From Tipula vernalis (Eukaryota; Arthropoda; Insecta; Diptera; Tipulidae), in contig OY282558.1 in assembly GCA_958295665.1 (NCBI GenBank), positions 45,074,389-45,138,388 on the forward strand: a stretch of DNA of 64,000 bases. The letters are read 5' to 3'. The notes beneath the pieces were generated by a model that made no database searches, had not been told where the DNA came from, and saw only the letters and a program-made list of their open reading frames with translations. A program made the translations under genes and the position numbers. This document shows, one piece after another, positions 27,208 through 63,590 of this stretch. Numbering within the stretch: position 1 is the first letter of the stretch; the number at the start of each line of letters is the position of its first letter.

Positions 27208-27791
27208 TGTTTGGCTCGATATAGTGGACTGTATGGTTGTATCAACTATCCAAAAAAAAACTTGGTTTTAATTCGCAAAACTTTATTTAATTTATGAAAT
27301 AAAATGTTTGATTTGGTTTTTAATCTCTTTTTATAATTTATTGGTTCGCTTATCTCGGAAATCAAAATTTGACTCCTCTTTTTTGGCTTTGCATTTTCCT
27401 TTTCTAATTACAACTATAAAAATCCCTTGATCTGATTTGGTCCATAATTTATTATGCTGTGTCGTTCACTGATTGGTCATAGTAAAACTCGGCTTAAAAG
27501 TAATCGCGGTTAATTTGAATTTCAGTGAAGACGCAATTATCACGAATGGTCTAAATTAGTGCGTATCTAACTCTATAGTCAACCACATAATTTATTTATC
27601 TTTACATAGATGGCAATCGGATCGTTTTTAAGCTACTACATTTATACAATTTAATTTGAGAAACGTCAAATTAAACAATAATAATTACTAATTTAATACA
27701 TATGCAAGATAAGTTCATTATTGTTACTATTGTAAGAAAAAAAATTTAATTAATTTTCTTTTAGGTGATTGATGACTATTGTTCCACAACA
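27208..27791 (-). repeat. BEL 3' LTR
   Basis: 584 bp, same length as the 5' LTR with one substitution (27375). The Gag-Pol stop codon lies 16 bases inside it. Confidence 0.97.
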
Positions 27792-30700
27792 TCCCCCTCG
27801 CCATGAATCGGTTGATTCAATTCATTTGTTGATAATTTCGTTAGTTTATGGACGGGTTGCTTCAAGTATCCAGTTTTGGTTTTTATTGTTACAACTCTTG
27901 TTGTGCCGTCGCGCCCGGGATGAACTTCTTCTATTCTTCCTAGTAACCATTTTGTAGGTGGAAGATTTTCTTCTCGGATTAGCACAATCTCGCCGGTGTT
28001 GTATGATTCTCCTGGAGTTTGCCATTTATTTCGGTTGTGTAATGACGTCAAGTATTCCATCTTCCATCGATTGCAAAAATGTTGTGTAATCTGTTGCATG
28101 TGTTGCCATCTTGAGAGGTGTGAAAGCTTGGCCTCGGTTAACGGTGGTTGAGGAATTTGGACAATTGGCCTTCCAATTAATAAGTAACCTGGTGTTAAAG
28201 CATCCAGATGATCATCTGACAGTACGCATAGTGGTCGTGAATTCAGTACTGCTTCGATTTGACTGGATATCGTTGTGAGTTCTTCAAACGTAAACACTGT
28301 GTTGCCCATTACGCGTTTAAGGTGGTGTTTAAAGGACTTTACGGCGGCTTCCCACAGTCCGCCAAATGTTGGTGCTACGCTGGGAATAAAGTGCCATTTT
28401 ATGTGCTCTGAAGCGAGAAATGAGAAAATGTGATTAGAGTTAGTTTTTAAGAAATCATAAGTCTCGCGAAGTTCATTGTTGGTGCCAATAAAGTTGGAGC
28501 CATTGTCCGAATATATATCGCTGCACAATCCACGACGTGACACAAATCTCTGCAATGCTGCGATAAAATTCTCCGTGGTCAAATTTGAAACAACTTCAAT
28601 ATGCACAGCTTTAGTCGCCATACAGACAAATATTGCTACGTAAGCTTTCCACCTTTGGGTTGACCTGCCATAAATTTGTTTCAGTTGCAATGGTCCCGCA
28701 TAGTCAATACCGGTCTTTAAAAATGGGCTTTCGTACCGAACACGATCGATTGGTAGATTTCCCATTATTTGATAATTTGGCTTCGTGTTGAATCGTTGAC
28801 ATCTATTACATCTCTTAATTACATCCTTTACACTTTTACTGCAATTGATTACATGATACTGTTGCCGTATTATACTGGTTAACAATGATGCACCTGCATG
28901 CTGGTGTTTTCCGTGAAGGTCTCTGATCAATAATTTGATAAAGTCGCAGCTTGGTAATATTACTGGATGTTTGGTGGAATAGTCGGCGGCTGCATTTTCG
29001 ATGCGACCGCCAACTCTCAATAAATCTTGCTCGTCTATGAATGGGTTTAGGCTGCGAATCTTGCTCTTCTTAGGTAATTGTCGTTTCGATTTGATTTCAA
29101 TGATTTCGGTGGCAAAGTATTCGTTCTGCACCCACGTAAAAATTGTAGTCTGGCTTCTCGTGATTTCATCTACTGTCAGTACTGATTCTCTGATGACTTT
29201 AGGACAAGGTTTCACTCTATTATGGAGTATATCTAAGTATCTGTAGACCCAGGCCAGCACTCGGATAATTTTATGACTGGAAGAAAATTTATTAACTAGG
29301 TATTGTAATATGACATTCGTATTATTTGATATTGCTGTTAGCACTGTCGGTTTAGTCTTTCTTTCTTCCGTCGACAGGTGGCCTTCGTCAATAATCAACC
29401 TTTGATTTGGCCATTTTTCCAGCGATTCACTTAACCAATGTGGACCGTGCCACCACAAATCAAATTGAATTAGTTTTGATGGCATCATTCCGCGTGATGC
29501 GCAGTCTGCGGGGTTGCAGTGTGAATCGACATGATTCCAAGATTCTCTCGATGTTTTCATTAATATATTGGCGGTTCGATTGGCTATAAATGTCTTCCAT
29601 CTTCTCGGCGGAGCAGACAACCATCCCAAAACTATAGTGGAGTCGGTCCATAACATGGTTTTAGCATCAGGGACTCCCAAAGCTTCTCTCGTGGATTTGA
29701 TTAAAGTGGCTAATAACGATGCGGCACACAGTTCAAGCCTTGGAATGGACACCTGATTTAACGGAGCCACTTTAGTTTTGGCGTTTATTAGCGTAACCCT
29801 TATCTTGCCATTTTGGTCTGTGCATCTGCAATAAATAACCGCAGCATACGCCTTCTCTGATGAATCGCAAAACCCGTGCAGCTCGAACTTTTCCGCATTT
29901 GTGCCGTACCATCTCGGAATCTTTACCTTTTCGAGTTCTGGAAGTTCCTCCTTTATAATTCGCCACACTTCATCCTCCCTTGTAGGTAACTGATCATCCC
30001 ATTTCAGGTTTAACAGCGACAAACTTTGGAATAGTATCTTAATGGTCACGATGGCTGGTGCAAGCCAACCCATTGGGTCGAATATGCGTGCGGATTGTGA
30101 TAGTATTTCTCGCTTCGTTCCGGATGATTCATTCTTAATGGAAACTTTAAACTGGAATTGATCTTCAATAGGGTTCCATTGGATGCCGAGCAGTTTAAGG
30201 TACGATTCCTTTTGTTCGATATTTAAAGGAATGCTTTCCTTATTTTCTGGAGCAATTTTATCTAGTAAGGGGCCGTAGTTCGATGACCACTTACGCAAGT
30301 TAAATCCATAAGATTTGAGAACGTCAGTAACGGATTCTTGAATGTGGTAGGCTTCCTCGGCTGTGTGGCATCCGGACATAAAGTCATCTACGTAAAAATC
30401 GTGCAGTATCTTCCTTGCGATTATCGGTTCCTTGTTCATCAAACTCTTCCCGATCACTTGGAGAGCTTTGGTAGCGAGGTATGGTGCTGATGTTGTACCG
30501 TAGGTGACGGTCGTGAGTCGATAGTGTGTTGGTGGTTTCTTTGGATCAGAACGCCACAGGATTCGGTGATAATTCCGATGATCTGGGTGTAATACTATTT
30601 GTCGGAACATTTTCTCCATGTCCGCCGTAAATACGATTCTATATAGGCGGAATCGCATCAGAATTGATGTAAGCGGTTCGTATAAAGTTGGTCCGACCAT

Positions 30701-33028
30701 CAACATTTCGTTAAGCGAGGTTCCACTGGATGATTTGAAAGATGCGTCGAATACAACCCGCAGTTTTGTGGTAGAGCTGGATTCTCGAAGCACACCATGA
30801 TGAGGAAGATAGTAAACTCCGTTGGTTTGGTTTATCTCTTCTGCTGGTACTTCTTCCATGTGTTTGAGAGCCACGTATTCTTCCATAAAGTTTATGTAAG
30901 ACGTTCTAAATTGTGCATTTTTCTCGAATCGTTTCTCTATTGCCTCCAGCCTTTTCAATGCTCCGCGACTGGAATTCCCCAACTTAAATGATGTTGATTT
31001 AAATGGAAGTTTGATCATAAATCTTCCATCCTCCATTCGTGTTGTCGTCTTATCGAAATGTTCCTCGCAGCTCTTCTCTTCTTCGGAATAATTAGTCGAG
31101 TGGCCTGACGGTGAAATCTCCTCTAATTCCCAAAACCTTTGTAATAATTCATCTACATTTACCTCACAATGTAGACTGTTAAGAATTGGTGACTGTTGAT
31201 TGGTGGCACACAATGCGCCGGCGATAACCCAGCCGAACACTGTATTTTGTGCTGTTAGTCCGCTATTATTTAGATTGATAGTGCCTGCTTTCAATAAACC
31301 GAAGAACTGGCCGCTTCCCAATAGCACATCGATTTTGTTGGGTTGGTTAAAGGTAGGGTCAGCTAATGGCAGGTGTTCTAAGTCGTGAGGTATAAGTTGT
31401 CCAATTAGTGTGGCTGGTTGATACGAAGTAATTTTCGGAATTATTAGACACTCTACTTGTAAATTAATTTTTTCGGTGCGGGATGATATGCAAATTGTGA
31501 CCTTGCCCTTGGTTGTTCCCGCCGTTGCTTGGCCAATTCCGCTAATACGGATGCGTGCATTTGTCCGCGATAATTTTAGTTGCTGTACCAGATTTTCACT
31601 CACAAACGACACTTGAGACCCTGAATCCAACAAGGCCCGACATAACCTCCATTCACCAAACCCGTCCTTGATTTTTATTATAGCGGTTGGTAGAAGCGTC
31701 TGATTGATGACGCCTTGTGTGTGATTAATATTTACGTTGTGAGTACTAATGCTGGTATCTTGCTGCTGATTACTGACCAAAGTTACAGTGGATGATGACG
31801 ATTGTCGTCGCGTGGCTAATTCTGCATTTTCTAGTGGAAGTAAGTTGCTTGTTGCAGATGTCTTTCCTGTTCCTTCTTCCGGCAGTATCGCTGAATGTAG
31901 AAGCGAATGATGTCTCTTTGAGCAAATACGGCATCTTTTGGTTGATCGGCAGTTGTACACACTGTGGTTGTTGTTTAGACAATTAAAACAGCGACCGTCG
32001 GTTTTGATCAAATCCCTTCGTGCCGCTACATCCATTGATTTAAATTTCGTACATTCAAACAGCTGGTGGGTGTTGTTTTGGCAAACTGGACATGTGACAT
32101 CTGTCTTGACATAAAACCCCTTGACCGAGGCATCTAGCCTTGATGAGTGACTCTTATTTGTTAAATTTACTCCTTCAAGCGCATCTGCTCTGCTCGCCAA
32201 AAAGTCGTAGAAGTTTTGGATTGATGGAAACTCCTGATCACTGGTATGTCTCATCCACAATTGTCTTGATTCCTCGTCCAATTTGTTGAATAGGACATAC
32301 AACAACCATGGATCCTTTGACTCTGCTTCGGTTCCCAAGGCCTTTAGTCCGCGTGTGGCCTCATCTGACGTATCTAAAAGCTTTCTTATATTTGAAGCAT
32401 TTGCTTGGCGAATATTAGGCTGCTCCATAAAACGTTTAATAAAGGTATTAGCAATTAAACCTTTTCTATCGTACCTTTTGCACAACTTCTGGAATGCCTC
32501 TATATAATTTGCTTCTGTAACCGCTAAATGCTTTAAAAGATTACTTGCTTCGCCATTGAGTAGTCCTTTCAAGTATTGGAATTTTCGCACTGCTGTAAGC
32601 GCCTGGTTCTCGTGCACCATTGTATTAAATAGGTCGAAGAAACTCTGCCACTCCCGATAATCACCAGAAAAGGTTGGTATATTAACTCTCGGTAGTTTGA
32701 AGTCACTGTTGATTGCTTGAGAAGTATTCATTATTGAATCATTCATCTGATTTGTAGGCAAAAATGTTTTCAGGCGCAACCATTTATTAAGTCTAGCTAT
32801 CACGCGGTAGTATTGCTCTTCAAACTCTTCGTTCTCCGAATTTTCCTCTGGGTCTATACTGAAAATTTGATTTTCTGTATCAGCAAAATTCTGCAATAGC
32901 TCCTTCGCGCGACGTGCACGTTCCTTTACTTCCTCTTCGCATGATTCCTCGTTTAACGTAACGGAATACTTATCTACTCTGGTTAGGAGGCCCTTTAATA
33001 CGCTTCGGCGTTTAATTAGCGCATCCAT
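27776..33028 (-). CDS. BEL/Pao Gag-Pol polyprotein, intact
   Basis: One open frame of 1750 codons from the ATG at 33028; the frame is open ten codons further up but without ATG. Order, with residues counted from the upstream limit: DUF1759-like Gag (about 120-300), two zinc knuckles (CFNCLNNNHSVYNC, CRICSKRHH; 357-385), aspartic protease ALLDSGSQVSFV (475-486), RT with FTADMEKMF (809-817) and FYVDDFMSG (888-896). Then RNase H (HGFCDSSEKA, WTDSTIVLGWL; 1061-1147), integrase zinc part (HGKHQHAG...CNRCQ; 1382-1421) and its D,D,E in GIDYAGPL, SDNGSNF and GGLWEAAVK (1450-1574). A DUF5641-like tail follows. All catalytic residues are in place. It makes the particle, copies the RNA and integrates the cDNA. 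No env-like frame follows. Confidence 0.97.
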   Translation of the reverse strand: MDALIKRRSVLKGLLTRVDKYSVTLNEESCEEEVKERARRAKELLQNFADTENQIFSIDPEENSENEEFEEQYYRVIARLNKWLRLKTFLPTNQMNDSIMNTSQAINSDFKLPRVNIPTFSGDYREWQSFFDLFNTMVHENQALTAVRKFQYLKGLLNGEASNLLKHLAVTEANYIEAFQKLCKRYDRKGLIANTFIKRFMEQPNIRQANASNIRKLLDTSDEATRGLKALGTEAESKDPWLLYVLFNKLDEESRQLWMRHTSDQEFPSIQNFYDFLASRADALEGVNLTNKSHSSRLDASVKGFYVKTDVTCPVCQNNTHQLFECTKFKSMDVAARRDLIKTDGRCFNCLNNNHSVYNCRSTKRCRICSKRHHSLLHSAILPEEGTGKTSATSNLLPLENAELATRRQSSSSTVTLVSNQQQDTSISTHNVNINHTQGVINQTLLPTAIIKIKDGFGEWRLCRALLDSGSQVSFVSENLVQQLKLSRTNARIRISGIGQATAGTTKGKVTICISSRTEKINLQVECLIIPKITSYQPATLIGQLIPHDLEHLPLADPTFNQPNKIDVLLGSGQFFGLLKAGTINLNNSGLTAQNTVFGWVIAGALCATNQQSPILNSLHCEVNVDELLQRFWELEEISPSGHSTNYSEEEKSCEEHFDKTTTRMEDGRFMIKLPFKSTSFKLGNSSRGALKRLEAIEKRFEKNAQFRTSYINFMEEYVALKHMEEVPAEEINQTNGVYYLPHHGVLRESSSTTKLRVVFDASFKSSSGTSLNEMLMVGPTLYEPLTSILMRFRLYRIVFTADMEKMFRQIVLHPDHRNYHRILWRSDPKKPPTHYRLTTVTYGTTSAPYLATKALQVIGKSLMNKEPIIARKILHDFYVDDFMSGCHTAEEAYHIQESVTDVLKSYGFNLRKWSSNYGPLLDKIAPENKESIPLNIEQKESYLKLLGIQWNPIEDQFQFKVSIKNESSGTKREILSQSARIFDPMGWLAPAIVTIKILFQSLSLLNLKWDDQLPTREDEVWRIIKEELPELEKVKIPRWYGTNAEKFELHGFCDSSEKAYAAVIYCRCTDQNGKIRVTLINAKTKVAPLNQVSIPRLELCAASLLATLIKSTREALGVPDAKTMLWTDSTIVLGWLSAPPRRWKTFIANRTANILMKTSRESWNHVDSHCNPADCASRGMMPSKLIQFDLWWHGPHWLSESLEKWPNQRLIIDEGHLSTEERKTKPTVLTAISNNTNVILQYLVNKFSSSHKIIRVLAWVYRYLDILHNRVKPCPKVIRESVLTVDEITRSQTTIFTWVQNEYFATEIIEIKSKRQLPKKSKIRSLNPFIDEQDLLRVGGRIENAAADYSTKHPVILPSCDFIKLLIRDLHGKHQHAGASLLTSIIRQQYHVINCSKSVKDVIKRCNRCQRFNTKPNYQIMGNLPIDRVRYESPFLKTGIDYAGPLQLKQIYGRSTQRWKAYVAIFVCMATKAVHIEVVSNLTTENFIAALQRFVSRRGLCSDIYSDNGSNFIGTNNELRETYDFLKTNSNHIFSFLASEHIKWHFIPSVAPTFGGLWEAAVKSFKHHLKRVMGNTVFTFEELTTISSQIEAVLNSRPLCVLSDDHLDALTPGYLLIGRPIVQIPQPPLTEAKLSHLSRWQHMQQITQHFCNRWKMEYLTSLHNRNKWQTPGESYNTGEIVLIREENLPPTKWLLGRIEEVHPGRDGTTRVVTIKTKTGYLKQPVHKLTKLSTNELNQPIHGEGDVVEQ
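27792..27802 (-). other. BEL polypurine tract
   Basis: GGCGAGGGGGA on the minus strand directly precedes the 3' LTR; it primes plus-strand DNA synthesis. It lies within the last codons of Gag-Pol. Confidence 0.9.
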
Positions 33029-33388
33029 TTTATGGTTTCGTGGACTGGTTGGTTGCACTAATATTCACTAAACTGGTTTTATTGATCGTTAACTTATTCA
33101 CTTGTATTCACTAACTGGTCAATTGATTTTTTTTTATACGGTTTTACGAATTTTAATTTGAATTTTACACTCGGTATTAATCAATTTTGGTATTGATTAC
33201 AATTACATGGTAGAACATATATCAATTTTGGTATTGATTATACACTTATGCAAGTATTAAATAATTTGTCGGTTGATGAGTAACAAATTATTTATTTATT
33301 GACTTATCTGATCTAGGGTGGTGGTTAGTGCGGTCTTGAGCACGTTTTTTGGTTTAGATCTGTTGATGCCTTATAGCCGATGCGTAAG
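33029..33388 (-). other. BEL 5' leader
   Basis: About 360 bases between primer site and Gag start, AT-rich, no open frame of note. ATCAATTTTGGTATTGATTA occurs twice (near 33180 and 33220). The packaging signal would be expected here. Confidence 0.7.
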
Positions 33389-33406
33389 ATCCGGCTCGAA
33401 GGACCA
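33389..33406 (-). other. BEL primer-binding site, tRNA-Tyr type
   Basis: On the minus strand TGGTCCTTCGAGCCGGAT begins one base after the 5' LTR and complements the 3' end of tRNA-Tyr with CCA. The plus strand here reads like that tRNA end (ATCCGGCTCGAAGGACCA). The tRNA identity is from memory of fly tRNA-Tyr. Confidence 0.88.
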
Positions 33407-33407
33407 A

Positions 33408-33991
33408 TGTTTGGCTCGATATAGTGGACTGTATGGTTGTATCAACTATCCAAAAAAAAACTTGGTTTTAATTCGCAAAACTTTATTTAATTTATGAAAT
33501 AAAATGTTTGATTTGGTTTTTAATCTCTTTTTATAATTTATTGGTTCGCTTATCTCGGAAATCAAAATTTGACTGCTCTTTTTTGGCTTTGCATTTTCCT
33601 TTTCTAATTACAACTATAAAAATCCCTTGATCTGATTTGGTCCATAATTTATTATGCTGTGTCGTTCACTGATTGGTCATAGTAAAACTCGGCTTAAAAG
33701 TAATCGCGGTTAATTTGAATTTCAGTGAAGACGCAATTATCACGAATGGTCTAAATTAGTGCGTATCTAACTCTATAGTCAACCACATAATTTATTTATC
33801 TTTACATAGATGGCAATCGGATCGTTTTTAAGCTACTACATTTATACAATTTAATTTGAGAAACGTCAAATTAAACAATAATAATTACTAATTTAATACA
33901 TATGCAAGATAAGTTCATTATTGTTACTATTGTAAGAAAAAAAATTTAATTAATTTTCTTTTAGGTGATTGATGACTATTGTTCCACAACA
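33408..33991 (-). repeat. BEL 5' LTR
   Basis: 584 bp; identical to 27208-27791 except G at 33575. It should hold the promoter and polyadenylation signals. Confidence 0.97.
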
Positions 33992-33996: not shown

Positions 33997-34920
33997 GACT
34001 CCGCCCTTTTTTGTTAAAATAAAACACATTTGCTTGTTTAGAAAATGAAAGAATTATTTATTGAAAGTATGCTCCATTTGCACCTACAACTTTCCCCCAT
34101 TTTTTAGGCAGTTTACGGATTCCCTCTCTGAAAAAATCTTGATCTTTGGAGGCGATCCAAACATTAAGCCAATTTTCGATCTCTGCGCGAGAACTGAACC
34201 GCTCTTCAGAAAGAGACGACTGCATCGACCGGAATAAGTAGTAATCTAAAGAAGCTACGTCTGGTGAATACGGCGGGTGGCATAGAACTTCCCAGTCCTG
34301 TCCTTGTAAATAATTTTTCCCAACGTTTGCAACATGTGGTTTTTCATTGTCATGTTGAAAAATTAATTTGTTGTGTCTATACACTCATTCTGGTGGTTTT
34401 TCCTCTATAGCTCGCTTCAAACGTATTAGTTGTCGTTGGTACACATCGCCATTGACAGTTTCACCTGATTCCAGCAGTTCATAGTGTACCATACCTTTCT
34501 GATCCCACCAGATACAGAGCATAACCTTATTGCAATGGATATCTCGCTTTGGTTGCGATGGACCAGCTTCACCACGCTTCACCCATGATTTTTGGCGTTT
34601 GGGATTCTCATAATAAATCCATTTTTCATCTCCAGTAACTATCCGACGCAGAAAACCTTTTCTTTGTTGTCTTTGAATCAGTATTTCACAAATGGTTTTT
34701 CGACGTTCGAGGTCTCTTTCATTTAATTCATGTGGAACCCAGTTGTTAGTTTTTGAACCATTCCGATTGTTTGTAAGCGTTTTGCAACAGTTGATCGATC
34801 AACATTTAATGCTACAGCCAATTCTGATTGTGTTTGAGAAGAATTTTCAGCCAATAACGCGCATTTATGGTTTTCGTAAGCAGTAGAAATAACGACAGCA
34901 ATTGAGAAAGGGCGGGGTCA
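33996..34920 (-). mobile_element. Mariner transposon, internally deleted copy
   Basis: Ends TGACTCCGCCCTTTT and the inverted TGACCCCGCCCTTTC, flanked by TA at 33994-33995 and 34921-34922. At 925 bp it is shorter than the usual 1.3 kb because the transposase N-terminus is missing behind the right end. It lies inside the old gypsy element and was later hit at its left edge by the BEL element. Confidence 0.95.
34058..34885 (-). pseudogene. Mariner transposase (DD34D), broken
   Basis: Read leftward: part of the helix-turn-helix (SELAVALNVDRSTVAKRL, near 34830-34760), a frameshift, WVPHELNERD (near 34735), the first catalytic D near TGDEKW, then 34582-34385 with KVMLCIWWDQKGMV. A stop at 34385 splits off 34384-34058, which holds the second D in IFQHDNEKPHV and the third D in PPYSPDVASLDYYLF. 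There are 34 residues between the last two, the mariner signature. The first ~50 residues are lost. Motif style is nearest the mauritiana/mellifera types. Confidence 0.92.
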
Positions 34921-46142: not shown

Positions 46143-46376
46143 TCACTGGAATAGAATCTGTTGAAAAAAAATACCCTGAACGAGGTACGGCTGATATTTT
46201 TTAACAGCCCAAATTATGGCTACCGCTTCTCTTTCGTTTGTCGCATACTTGGTATCAGTGATGTTCAGCGATCTGAATGCGAAAGCGATTAGTCTTTCAA
46301 CCTTATCGAGCATTTGGGAAAGGACAGCACCTAGTGAAATTCGGATGCATCTGTGATTAAGATAAAGAGGATTCAA
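46143..46376 (-). pseudogene. Gypsy RNase H remnant
   Basis: 77-codon frame with SLGAVLSQMLDKVERLIAFA and YATNEREAVAIIWAVKKYQP, the first half of the RNase H domain. It overlaps the RT frame by four bases, marking a frameshift. Confidence 0.8.
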
Positions 46377-46900
46377 AAGTCAGGATAGGCAAGAATTTGG
46401 TCCGTGGAGATAATCTTCTTTATGGTTTCAAATGCTTTAACATAGTCTGGCTTCTTGACATTAATGACTGTGGCTTTCTTTAGGAATTTTGTCATAGGTT
46501 TGGTTATCTTGAGAATAGTTCTGAATGAAGCGACGATAATAGCCTGATAAGCCAAGAAATTGCTTAATTTGTTTTTGGGTGGTTGGTAAACTAATGGACA
46601 TTTAATTATTTTTTCGATATTATCCGGGTTTGGTCTTACTTCTTCCTGAGGAATAATATGACCAAGAAATTCTGTTTCCTTCTTTAGGAATTCGCAATTA
46701 ACTAGCTGAATTTTTAAGTTGACGTGTGATAACCGTTTAAATACATCACAAAGATTTCTTATATGGTTCTCTAGATTATAACCTACATTAATAATGTCAT
46801 CGAGGTGTAAGTAACAAATTGTTCCGAGCAAGCCGTGCAAGACATTATTCACAGCTCGCTGAAATGTAGCTGGAGAATTACCCAGTCACCATTATTTACA
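46373..46900 (-). pseudogene. Gypsy RT second half
   Basis: Begins near 46895 with NSPATFQRAVNNVLHGLLG (partly before the 46852 frame start) and has ICYLHLDDIINVGYNLENHI, so the catalytic DD is present. Then come ETEFLGHII, the thumb FLAYQAIIVASF and ITKPMTKFLKK. The first half of RT, with the first aspartate, is deleted between here and the protease. Confidence 0.82.
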
Positions 46901-54009: not shown

Positions 54010-55655
54010 TTCACAAATTTGTAAACGATAAACAGCAATCAGCTTGGGAAAATACTCCTGAAATTAAAACGAAAATCAAGGGAAACAATTATCCTATATG
54101 GAAATTAGGGAACTCCTCGCAGAAAAAAAGAAGAGCGAGAAGAATATGGCAACAAACAAGGGCCCCCCAAAGATAAAACTCATTTGAACAATCTTACTCA
54201 ACAATTAAGAAGAGAGAACTATTTAAGAAAATTAACTAATGATAACAATACAAATGATTCTCTTTGAAAAGCAACCAAAAGAATCAAAAGACCAATAATG
54301 CAGAATCCCCCAATAAGAATAGCAGGTGAGAAATGGGCTAGAAATAATGAAGACAAAGCTCGAGAATTTGCCGAACACCTCGAAAAAATATTCCAGCAGC
54401 ATGAAGACCAAACGTTGGAAGCCGAGATAATAACTGAACAAGGTGTGCAAGAAAGTAAAGAAATCCTACCCATAACACAAAAAGAAGTCATGCGTGAGAT
54501 AAAAGCTAATATGAATACGAAAAAAGCTCCTGGATACGAACTTATTACTGCAGAAATCTTAAATCAACTGAACTGCCAAGGAAAGCTCTGGTAAAGCTCA
54601 CCAATCTTATAAACGCAGCATTTAGAATCAAATGTGTACCAAGCTTATGGAAAATTGCAGAAGTGATTATGATCCCAAAATCTGAGAAACCACCACACAT
54701 AACATCGTCACAGTACACAGAATAACCAGTATAATTGTTTAACAGTATTTCTAAACGTTGCACAAGCGTTTGAAAGAGTGTGGCATGAAGGACTTAACCA
54801 CAAGTTTAGAAATCTTCTACCAATGCATTTTGCTAAGATACTGGAATCTTACTTGAAAGATAGGTTCTTCAGAATTAAGTTAGGTCATACATTTTCTGAA
54901 TTGAAAGAAATCAATGCAGGAGTTCCACATAGCAGTGTATTATGGGCGGTTTTATACCTACTATACACTAATGATCTTCCTATAATAGAAAACAATACAG
55001 TGGCGACTTTTGCAGATGACACGGCGATCTTAGCTATTGGAAAAAGCAACGAAGAATCAACACAGAAGTTACAATCAGCTATAACTTCAATATATAAATG
55101 GACAAAAAGATGGAGAATAAAACTAAATGAAGCTAAATCAATTCACATCAAATTTACAAACAGACGATTCGAACATATTCCGATCATCATAAATCGGGAA
55201 ATAATACCGCATGCGAACACAGCTAAGTATCTCGGCATGACCCTGGATGAAAAACTACGATGGAAAGCACATGTCAAGAAGAAAAGTGAAGAATTAAGAC
55301 TTAAATACAGAAAAGTGTGTTGGCTGATGGGGAGGAACTCTTCTTTATCAACATACAACAAGCTTCTACTTTATAAGCAAATATTGAAACCTATATAGAC
55401 TTATGGTATTCAGCTTTGGGGTTGTACCAAACAGAGCAACATAAATATCATCCAAAGATTTCAGAATATGGTATTAAGCAACATCGTTGATGCACTTTGG
55501 TATGTCAGGAACAATGAACTTCTTAGGGACCTTAAAGTGAACCCCATCTTAAATGAAATCCAAGAAAAAGCACGGAGATTCCTAAGCATCACGAATTTAG
55601 TATACGCAGACTTAAAAGGATCAAACCTTTTGAGCTGGTGTGAACGGTGTATCTG
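54010..55655 (+). pseudogene. Jockey ORF2 (reverse transcriptase), broken
   Basis: Linker (RARRIWQQTRAPQ near 54145, AGEKWARNNEDKAREFAEHL at 54322) and RT finger (KKAPGYELITAEILNQL near 54520). An internal deletion of RT motifs near 54725 follows, then NVAQAFERVWHEGLNHKF (first catalytic aspartate is now N), GVPHSSVLWAVLYLLYTNDL and the active site ATFADDTAIL (FADD at 55009-55020). AKYLGMTLDEKLRWKAHV follows. A single TAG at 55396, where related proteins have Trp in KPIWTYGIQLWG, breaks the C-terminal part, which continues in the same frame to the insertion at 55643. Confidence 0.9.
55638..55643. repeat. Target-site duplication of the RAG1-like transposon (left)
   Basis: GTGTGA, repeated at 58590-58595. 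With one copy and no insert the Jockey frame runs on unbroken (LLSWCDYQLKQHC). Confidence 0.93.
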
Positions 55656-55806
55656 AACCACTTTTAAATGGCTCGGAAAACCACGTCTCTATTTTCTTCA
55701 AGGATCAAAAGTTCCATGTTTGAGAAGTCCAAAAAAACAAAAATTAGCAAAATCCCCAGAGCCGTTTTGAAAAAAACGCAATTTCAAAATTTTTTTGGTG
55801 ACGATA
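55644..55806 (+). repeat. Terminal inverted repeat, left
   Basis: 163 bp; pairs with 58427-58589. Starts ACGGTGTATCTGAACC. The 60-codon frame in each repeat (MARKTTSLFS.. / MARKSTSLFS..) exists only because the repeats are alike. Confidence 0.95.
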
Positions 55807-56027
55807 CGGAAATTTACGACTTTTTGCAGCTTGTTTGTTTTCTCTTGTAGAAAGAAGAATCGAGAATAGAAAGTTTTAATATTTTTATCAAAGATCAACT
55901 TTTCCAGACCAAATCAGTAATATTGGACGAAATCTATCGAATTAAGTAATACAACTTTATTTGAAAAATTACGAAAATCAAGATTATTGAATGAAATACA
56001 CGGAGACATCAAAATGAAAAGGCAAAA

Positions 56028-56033
56028 TTTATT
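56028..56033 (-). terminator. Polyadenylation signal of the transposase gene
   Basis: AATAAA on the minus strand about 105 bases after the stop codon. Confidence 0.55.
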
Positions 56034-56138
56034 TAGGCTGCCCAAATCATAATATATTCCTTATACGAAAAAATGTCTTCTCTTGACTGTCATTGTTTAT
56101 TCAAGGCTGTGGAACAAAAGCCAGAAACACCTTGAACC

Positions 56139-58164
56139 TTAAACATGGCGAGATTTATATTCTTGTATAGCTCTTAGAAGTTTGGAGCTATAATCTGGAT
56201 GTGTATGGTGGACTTTATAATTCATCCAGGTATTTTTGAAGTCATGGTGAACTGACTCCATAGCTTGCTCACTGTAGTTCCCGAGTCCTTTCTCCATTTT
56301 TCGGCAAAAATTAGGAACGTGGAAAAAGACAGCATGAACTTTTGGCATTATTGGTATTGCTAGGTCCAAATAACTTCTTTGAAATTCTGAAATATACACC
56401 TCAAATTTTTCGTCAAGACTACTTGAGAAACATGAATTGACGACACTTGAAAAATCATTAAAACATCTGACATATTTTAAACAATGAACACTACATTTTG
56501 CCCGAAGCAGATCTATCTTGTTCAACAAATTTTTGCAGGCATTGCCTGCGAAACCAGGAGATCCATGGACAAATTCTCTGCTTACATTGCACGATTTTGC
56601 CCATTTCTCAGTATCGTCTTCGCATTCCCTCAGCATGTGCCCATACAACGTGTTTACTACCCCGAGCATTAGATGCAGTTTAGGTGGAGGTATTATATCG
56701 ATGATTTCTGTCTCTGGATTCCTTGTAAAAATAGGTTGAGATACGTGACTGTAAAAATTCTTGGCACTAATTTTTTTACTGCCACTATTCTTGAAGGCGT
56801 CTGAATTTTCACGGCAACTACCAACGGTTCTATAACTTCCACACTTACTCAAGAGATCTTTTGATGCAGTACACCACGTACACGGGTAATGAGAAGAATG
56901 AGCCATGACCCCAGTTATTATATTGGCCATTTTTTGGTCTGTGGCAATGGTCATGACTTTTAAGTCATTCGAATGTAGAGAGGACCACAGAGTGCAAACA
57001 TTCACATAATTTTCTTGTGTATCAGAAATGATACCAAGGATGAATAACTTTTTCACACCCGTGTCCTTAAATTTATTGGCGTGTACTCCATCATGATAAT
57101 GCTGCCTGGCCCCTTTGAAATGTGGATTATTATCGGCTCCTTCGAATCTTGATTGAATGGATAAGCAAATCTTCAAAAACCCTCCACCACCGTCAAGCCC
57201 AATTTTCAAATCTACTTCTTGCAAACCTCTTTTTTCTCGAATATATGTAACTTAGCCTTATACATTATTATAACAAACAAAGCATCCAGATCTATTTATT
57301 ACACAAGACTATGGTATTCAATACGTCACAAACACGAGATTCAAAAAACGAATCAAGCTGATGATTCAACAAAAGCAGGTCCTGCTTCAAGTTGGGCTGA
57401 AACATTTTCCTATTCTTACTGCCAACTCGCAAAGCAGCAGTTAGAGAATGTGTCTTTCTTGTAGACAACCCCAATTCTGTACTTATTTTCAATATGTCGA
57501 TAGCTGCGACTGTTTGTTTTCTTGAGCTTTTATCCACATTGTTTGAATTCACTGAAACTGGTAGTTTTTTGCCTCTCCTTTGAGATAACCGCAACTGTCC
57601 TTCATTGTACGAGTGTTCTGGCATGTGTAGAATATCTTTTAGCATTGATGAAGCTAATTTTTCCTTTTCTTTGGTAGACAAATTTTTTGAAATCAATTCA
57701 GTGAGAATAGGGATGCATTTAGGTGAAGTGCAAATTTTGTTTTTATCCAGTGGTCCTCTGCATTTCTTACACTTTTTCTTGATCACTTTTCTTTTCGCTG
57801 AATTTCCTAGACACAGATTGTCTGGTGCACGTCTCGCAATTTCACACAACTTGCAGTCACAAAGTATCTTATTTTTAGATCGTGTTACACATGGGAGTTC
57901 CAGAAAACCAGAATAGTCCGCTAGAGCTAATGTGGTTTCTTCAGAATTTTGTTTATTGAATTTGTATATGATGATTTTGCAACTGCTACAGACAGCAGAT
58001 GGGTAACGAATATCATCAAGATTAATATTTACCGCATTTTTTACCTCAATTTTCAATGGGCCCACAATATCCCACATCTTATCTTTCTTTCTTAAACACA
58101 AAAAACAAATCACGCCTCGGTTTTCTTCATGAGTTCGCGCATGGTCCTTTGTCTTTCGTGACAT
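56139..58164 (-). CDS. RAG1-like transposase (two exons, 58164-57303 and 57250-56139)
   Basis: Exon 1, from the ATG at 58164, gives a Cys-rich region: C20/C23 (CFLC), C59/C62 (VCSSCKIIIYKF), C102-C107 (CDCKLCEIARR), C132/C135 and C145/C150, then a basic stretch. RAG1 has the same series (C..C, FCHNCWSI, CDIC..ARR) in its N-terminal region. Exon 2 holds the core: aspartate in GLDGGGGF, aspartate in ATDQKMANIITGVMAHS followed by YPCTWC, PPPKLHLMLG, and H-x4-HVP (HAVFFHVPNF) followed by SEQAMESVHHDFKNTW with the glutamate. RAG1 has DGMGD, GYDEKL...YICTLC, H-x4-HVP and SEGNES in that order. Joined it is about 657 residues. It should cut and integrate the element. RAG1 comparisons are from memory. 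Catalytic and zinc residues all appear intact. Confidence 0.9.
57251..57302 (-). other. Probable 52-nt intron in the transposase gene
   Basis: Minus strand begins GTAATA and ends CTAAG. Removing it joins the two frames exactly (phase 1) and eliminates the stop codons between them. The length is typical of short fly introns. The acceptor lacks a strong pyrimidine tract, so a small frame-breaking change is the alternative. Confidence 0.6.
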
Positions 58165-58426
58165 TTTGTTTCACTCTTATGTAGTTAATATGTTCGTCTA
58201 TTACTAATAACTGTTATTTACTGGCCGGTTTGTCAACGACTGTTTTGACCAATATTGCGACAACTAAGTCTGTCTTTCTGCTGATTTTTGAAGCAAACAT
58301 TTGAAAACATCAAACATTTTTACGTGAAAAGAAACAAAACAATGTCTGTACACAGACAGATATGGTGATGTATTTATTTTTCAAGCATTTCAGCATATCT
58401 CTTGGCTACATCTACAGAATTATGAA

Positions 58427-58589
58427 TATCGTCGCAGAAAAAAAATTGAAATTGCGTTTTTTCCAAAACGGCTCCGGGGATTTTGCTAATTTTTGTTTTT
58501 TTGGACTTCTCAAACATGGAACTTTCGATCCTTGAAGAAAATAGAGACGTGCTTTTCCGAGCCATTTAAAAGTGGTTCAGGCACACCGT
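58427..58589 (-). repeat. Terminal inverted repeat, right
   Basis: 163 bp; reverse complement begins ACGGTGTGCCTGAACC and matches the left repeat at about 93 percent by eye. Confidence 0.95.
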
Positions 58590-58595
58590 GTGTGA
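58590..58595. repeat. Target-site duplication of the RAG1-like transposon (right)
   Basis: GTGTGA, directly after the right terminal repeat. Confidence 0.93.
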
Positions 58596-62335: not shown

Positions 62336-62780
62336 TTCATTTTTGACAAGTTATCAAACAATCATTTTTTAGTCGATACGGTTTCAGATTTATCTATCGT
62401 TCCTCCTACTCCTAAAGACAAATCAAGTACGAGTAATTCCATTAATTTGTTCGCCGCTAACGGCTCAAAAATCAAAACATTCGGACAGAAAATCATTACC
62501 ATTTCATTATGATTGCGTAGAAGTTTTGATTGGCCATTTACTGTTGCTGACGTTACAAAACCAAATATCGGTGCAAATTTTTAAAAAAATTTTAATATGC
62601 TCAGACTCAGAAACTAAACTTAAAACCTCGTGTTCTATTAAACACATCTCAGACAACGAAGTGAATATAACCACGTTAATTAACGACAATTCTTTGACAA
62701 ATGATAAATATCTTCGACTCTTAATAGAATTTCACGATCTGACAATTTCTAATTACAAACATTCAAATTCACACGCAAAC
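62336..62780 (+). pseudogene. Gypsy protease remnant
   Basis: [20 protein letters not shown] (62372-62430) is the protease site with DTG changed to DTV; then [13 protein letters not shown] and, after a stop, [19 protein letters not shown]. The downstream spacer continues in the frame 62526-63122. Confidence 0.8.
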
Positions 62781-63590
62781 GTTTTCCATTTTATTGAAAC
62801 AAAGGCTCCTCCTGTCTTCGCGAAAGCTCGTCGGTTGACCCAGGAAAAGTATGATTTAGCGAAAAAAGAGTTTGAATATATGGTTAAGGAAGGGATATGT
62901 CGACCATCAAAGTCTCCATGGGCAAGTCCTTTACACATGGTGCCTAAAAAGGACGGTGATTGGCGTCCGTGTGGCGATTATCGGCGTCTCGATGCCGTAA
63001 CTGTACCTGATCGATATCCAGTGCCTAAAATACAGGATTTTACAATGTACCTTGAATCGATCTCACACGCTCATTTCATCAAATACCAGTTCATGAGTTC
63101 GATATTCCAAAAACTGCAATAATTACACCTTTCGATCTTTATGAATTTACAGTAATGACATTCGGACTTAGAAACGCCGGTCAAACGTTTCAAAGATATG
63201 TCGACCAAGTACTAATAGAGCTACCTTTTGTTTTCAAATATATTGATGATGTTCAGATCGCATCAAAAACCCATGAAGAACATTATGAACACCTTAAAAT
63301 AGTTTTCGAACGTTTTCGTTAATTCGGTCTTAAAATTAATCTAGCAAAATGTGAGTTTGGGAAGTCGGAGATTCATTTTCTTGGCTTTAAAATAAACGAA
63401 AGTGGAATCAAACCCAATCCGGTAAAGGTAGAGATGATATCACAAATTCCATTATCTCAGCTCGCAAAAGATTTAAGGCGATTTATTGCTTCAATAAATT
63501 TTTACCGTCGTTGCATCCCTAACGCTGTCGAGTCTCAAGGCATTTTACAAAAAATGATAAAGGGGAATATTAAAAACTAAACTTCTATTA
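62781..63590 (+). pseudogene. Gypsy reverse transcriptase remnant
   Basis: [60 protein letters not shown] and VPKIQDF (to 63045). The block with the first catalytic aspartate is lost around 63050-63120. Then, after a shift, TFGLRNAGQTFQRYVDQVL, the active site FKYIDDVQIAS (about 63236-63268), a stop at 63320 and the thumb (FLGFKINESGIKPNPVKVEM, RRFIASINFYRRCIPNAVES). Confidence 0.85.

Follow-up and report, generated by a model that had tools for sequence, protein, structure and literature searches.

We analysed a stretch of 64,000 nucleotides of the Tipula vernalis genome (hereafter the window; contig OY282558.1, positions 45,074,389 to 45,138,388) and found at positions 55643-58590 what is very probably a decayed copy of a multi-copy, cut-and-paste DNA transposon of the Chapaev superfamily. 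This filing follows from the 4-bp target site duplications, the CAC...GTG ends and the C(2)C, LH and H(4)H motifs of the transposase, which, by prediction only, has a core of the RAG1/Transib type. The initial annotation had described the element as complete, with a two-exon transposase related to RAG1 and intact in its key residues. The element and its insertion site comprise the following features (positions of the window).

55643..58590, minus strand: whole transposon, probably of Chapaev type, 2948 bp, sitting in a non-LTR (long terminal repeat) retrotransposon remnant
55643..55806, plus strand: left terminal inverted repeat, starting AACGGTG; its first base differs from the family CACGGTG
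58427..58590, minus strand: right terminal inverted repeat, starting CACGGTG
55639..55642, no strand: left 4-bp target site duplication, TGTG
58591..58594, no strand: right 4-bp target site duplication, TGTG
54703..55656, plus strand: reverse transcriptase remnant of the non-LTR retrotransposon that is the element's insertion host, two open reading frames (ORFs) split by a stop

The inverted repeats previously placed at 55644-55806 and 58427-58589 are real (163 nt, 93% identity), only off by one base. The right repeat starts with C (CACGGTG) and the left reads AACGGTG, so that the element spans 55643-58590 with TGTG on either side. The element is inserted, with a 4-bp duplication, into the retrotransposon remnant, whose reverse transcriptase matches Pfam RVT_1 with an E-value of 2.1e-13. 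A stop is already present upstream of the insertion in the frame of this remnant, and joining the flanks at the duplication leaves the frame open for 36 codons beyond the join. Taken alone, the window copy would also allow a 5-bp or a 6-bp duplication to be drawn.

Searching the same genome (1.27 Gb, 340 contigs) gave at least 114 matches, a few of which are pieces of one copy. The 30 best-matching loci were fetched, and both ends were present in 24 (L016, L017, L018, L022, L023 and L027 were left out). An exact 4-bp target duplication was found in 19/24 copies, the window copy among them, and at least three of the four bases matched in 22/24; a 5-bp duplication match was found in none of the 24. 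The 4-bp duplications, such as TGTG, AACG and CCAA, follow no TWA rule. CAC stands at both ends of 20/24 copies, the window copy having AAC at its left end. The mean pairwise identity among 22 copies is 97.1% (92.0-98.3%), and a stop-free frame, of 677 residues, was found in one of these 22, the next longest being 603. Such high mutual identity together with mostly broken frames would be consistent with a burst and later decay. The genome also harbors a second subfamily with similar ends, whose main matches are 63-71% identical to P0001, the nearest protein to the window transposase. Among its eight fetched loci, L031, L034 and L038 have 4-bp duplications, which in two cases were read by eye from the ends, and four have no usable pair of ends.

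In the window, the transposase gene falls into two parts.

57301..58164, minus strand: N-terminal part of the transposase remnant (P0001 residues 1 to about 290), as far as the frameshift, by tblastn of P0001
56139..57308, minus strand: C-terminal part of the transposase remnant, with the RAG1-like catalytic core and TAA stops at 57260-57258 and 57254-57252

These parts correspond to minus-strand ORFs of 292 and 370 aa that resemble two exons. P0001, which is 94% identical to the window transposase, matches the window by tblastn in two frames, with identities of 275/290 (95%) and 375/389 (96%); the frames meet at 57301-57308, and the two TAA codons come directly after. As P0001 codes through the supposed intron, the window copy reads as a single-exon gene broken by one frameshift near 57301-57308 and by the two stop codons, and the two-exon model does not hold. 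An intron at about 57251-57301, which would make the window gene a functional two-exon transposase, would be compatible with any filing of the element. A GT...AG splice joining both frames can be drawn, and Chapaev3 transposases with two exons are described in a published account (PMC4079192), yet this explanation is extremely improbable given that P0001 reads the stretch as coding sequence and that one genome copy carries the 677-residue frame without a stop. Nor is the gene intact: the catalytic residues persist, but the frame is broken and conserved residues are altered. The window copy differs from its family at rarely varying positions (L413 to Q, E498 to K and T609 to M), and its ATDQKM is ATDLKM in P0001. 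It cannot make the full enzyme, although its ends might be mobilised by another copy.

The catalytic and zinc-binding residues listed in the initial annotation are all at the places given there; the LH motif is added to them below.

57192..57194, minus strand: first catalytic Asp, D327, corresponding to RAG1 D600 by motif only
56937..56939, minus strand: second catalytic Asp, D412, aligned with RAG1 D708
56871..56882, minus strand: C(2)C zinc motif, C431 and C434
56673..56678, minus strand: LH motif, L499 and H500
56319..56336, minus strand: H(4)H zinc motif, H613 and H618
56256..56258, minus strand: catalytic Glu, E639, aligned with RAG1 E962

A protein search returned 96 homologues at E≤0.1, and conservation was counted in their alignment, leaving out sequences without a letter at the position. 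D412 is conserved in 94/94 homologues and E639 in 77/79. The Chapaev C(2)C motif follows the second catalytic Asp (C431 in 94/94, C434 in 92/94), and both the LH motif (L499 in 89/91, H500 in 89/90) and the H(4)H motif (H613 in 82/84, H618 in 77/80) are present. Near-invariance across the homologues makes it clear that these residues are not there by chance. The VP after the second His, by contrast, is no family feature, since the P is found in 12 homologues and replaced by E in 14. Homologues with a named organism come from Hydra, the beetles Brassicogethes and Psylliodes, and the fungus gnat Pseudolycoriella; no homologue of the transposase was found in the viral, prokaryote and phage collections searched. 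One homologue, P0223 of Pseudolycoriella hygida, is named "doublesex" and consists of most of a family transposase fused to a DM domain, which reflects either an error in the gene model or a genuine fusion.

According to a published account, Chapaev elements are marked by ends of the form CAC...GTG and by duplications that are generally 3 to 4 bp long, and their transposases by the motifs C(2)C, LH and H(4)H, whereas Chapaev3 has TWA duplications (PMC4079192). We found all five marks in this family; the TWA 3-bp target duplications of Chapaev3 were not seen as a rule in the 24 copies with both ends. No sequence named Chapaev was among the results of the searches made. The element could instead belong to a separate, unnamed lineage of the EnSpm-Mirage-Chapaev-Transib clade, outside Chapaev proper. 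This clade is wide, with Plavaka, ESTA and Lanisha discussed as further lineages in a 2025 paper (PMC12730594), and the Chapaev filing goes by published marks, not by reference sequences; nevertheless, we consider such a lineage unlikely, as the family has every Chapaev mark that can be decided and TWA duplications are not usual in it.

A relationship between Chapaev and RAG1 has been proposed before. Kapitonov and Koonin united Chapaev, Transib and RAG1 in a single superfamily, with a shared N-terminal Chapa zinc finger, and this placement rested on distant core similarity together with shared domains (PMC4411706). The confident predicted structure of P0001 has a RAG1/Transib-type transposase core with the catalytic and C2/H2 zinc arrangement, the very arrangement on which the initial annotation had staked its reading. 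In addition, when a profile of the family core was aligned to RAG1, the catalytic and zinc residues were paired; the exception is the first D, as the local alignment does not extend to it. The prediction agrees with the core fold of Transib, and the predicted model and profile alignment together agree with the core fold and the catalytic and C2/H2 zinc residues of RAG1L. The description "RAG1-related" stands as far as this predicted fold and arrangement go; the motifs cited for it are less specific, being common to EnSpm, Mirage, Chapaev, Transib and RAG1 as one paper presents them (PMC12730594).

Several results weigh against a Chapaev transposon with a RAG1-type core. The filing was made from published marks, without reference sequences or a tree. 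The exact 4-bp duplication is missing in 5/24 copies, and L037 of the second subfamily, with both ends readable, has no matching duplication. The profile-RAG1 score is barely over that of the best control (31.2 vs 30.4), and the hhalign probability of this alignment is low (2-9%). The A1 profile gave no RAG1 match among PDB sequences at E≤1, and the Pfam RAG1 model (PF12940), which matches 21/21 RAG1 proteins as a control, matches 0/41 family members at E≤0.1. Finally, the fold was predicted from P0001 and not from the window copy.

The same predicted fold and aligned residues would suit a transposon directly related to the RAG1 lineage, either RAG-like (RAGL/ProtoRAG) or Transib, and the CACGGTG ends resemble the heptamer of the recombination signal sequence and the Transib ends. 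We regard such an element as very improbable. Its duplication length is already contradicted by the 4 bp observed, the 5 bp of Transib being found in 0/24 copies. The initial annotation was right in seeing no RAG2-like gene: about 330 and 260 nt are left outside the transposase and the repeats, too little for such a gene to fit, and although this space was not scanned for kelch motifs, the remaining ORFs inside the element are antisense and at most 110 aa. The missing matches to Pfam RAG1 and the profile search without clear RAG1 similarity also argue against it, and one published survey, in a figure legend, records no RAG-like sequences in Arthropoda (PMC7204232).

A further Pfam family, DUF1280 (PF06918), matches 8/41 family members (best 7.1e-5) and, weakly, 4/21 RAG1 proteins (best 0.055). 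With matches in both sets, DUF1280 may also be related to this transposase core.

The N-terminal part of the transposase carries a putative zinc-binding domain.

57934..58113, minus strand: ZAD-like zinc domain, P0001 residues 18-77, four Cys as two CxxC; coordinates computed from the P0001 tblastn frame

Pfam zf-AD matches 13/41 family members at E≤0.1. One member, P0025, exceeds the curated cut-off of 28 bits with a score of 33.1 bits; the scores of P0001 (14.4 bits whole, 20.3 bits for the N-terminal piece) and of the window frame (16.2 bits) lie below this cut-off. Where Chapaev is described with an N-terminal Chapa zinc domain, the family has this Cys-rich domain, which scores as zf-AD. 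In a low-confidence RAG1 model, the N-terminal zinc region falls on the same ZAD structure, a single structural match that hints at a link between ZAD and RAG1. We tentatively suggest, as a possibility that has somewhat more against it than for it, that the zinc region common to Chapaev transposases and RAG1 N-termini is a ZAD, the leading domain in a large insect family of zinc-finger transcription factors. In that case the RAG1 N-terminus would have arrived with the transposase and not by an N-RAG-TP insertion of its own, and a transposon-borne domain would be common to RAG1 and the ZAD proteins of insects. The origin of the RAG1 N-terminus would then be directly testable by structure, and work on insect ZAD zinc fingers and on RAG would gain a common root. 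The PDB (2026 sequence copy) lists a solved chain, 21wb_A, for the N-terminal zinc region of mouse RAG1; it was not among the structure-search matches.

By homology, two transposases would pair the CACGGTG ends and, in the manner of RAG1 and Transib, nick and hairpin the flanking DNA; the freed ends would then be joined to the target DNA with a 4-bp stagger. To judge from ZAD proteins, the N-terminal domain probably has a part in dimerisation or in binding the ends. In itself the element is ordinary, one of a family of similar, mostly broken copies, and the finding supports a published idea without opening a new kind. A Chapaev-type transposase with a full RAG1-type core, confidently predicted, strengthens the published superfamily placement, and such a predicted core would widen the set of enzymes available for understanding V(D)J recombination.

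Other mobile elements are present in the window. An LTR retrotransposon at 27208-33707, which we take to be BEL/Pao-like, has one ORF of 1762 aa (27776-33064, minus strand); its two 300-nt repeat stretches are 100% identical, and it was therefore probably inserted recently. By eye, a minus-strand ORF at 34385-34798 looks like a mariner transposase remnant, and 46373-46885 and 62373-63122 look like fragments of gypsy-type pol genes.

Among known systems, Chapaev (of the CMC/CMCT clade) agrees with the window family, by description, in the transposase motifs C(2)C, LH and H(4)H, in ends of the form CAC...GTG, in duplications of 4 bp and in a zinc region on the N-terminal side of the DDE core; this region scores as Pfam zf-AD in the window family and is not so described in the Chapaev accounts consulted. 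The Chapaev3 elements Garfield, Merrow and Conan share the motifs and, as reported, have animal hosts including insects, but are described with TWA 3-bp duplications (PMC4079192), in contrast to the 4 bp here. Silkworm Garfield encodes a two-exon enzyme of 556 aa according to the same source (PMC4079192), whereas the window family has a single exon and about 677 aa. Transib, as described for HzTransib, consists of the core only and makes 5-bp duplications, unlike the window family, whose duplications are 4 bp long and whose transposase has a zinc region at its N-terminus. RAG1 and RAG1L (ProtoRAG) differ from this family in the 4-bp duplications, in a sequence identity of only 14% and in the room for a RAG2 partner, which is too small here; a RING domain was detected in none of the 41 family members at E≤0.1. 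Finally, Aplysia N-RAG-TP is likewise a mobile element and is described with a region similar to the RAG1 N-terminus. In its published description, it consists of such RAG1 N-terminal-like sequence throughout (PMC8355894), whereas the window element, compared on that description, has the full catalytic core.
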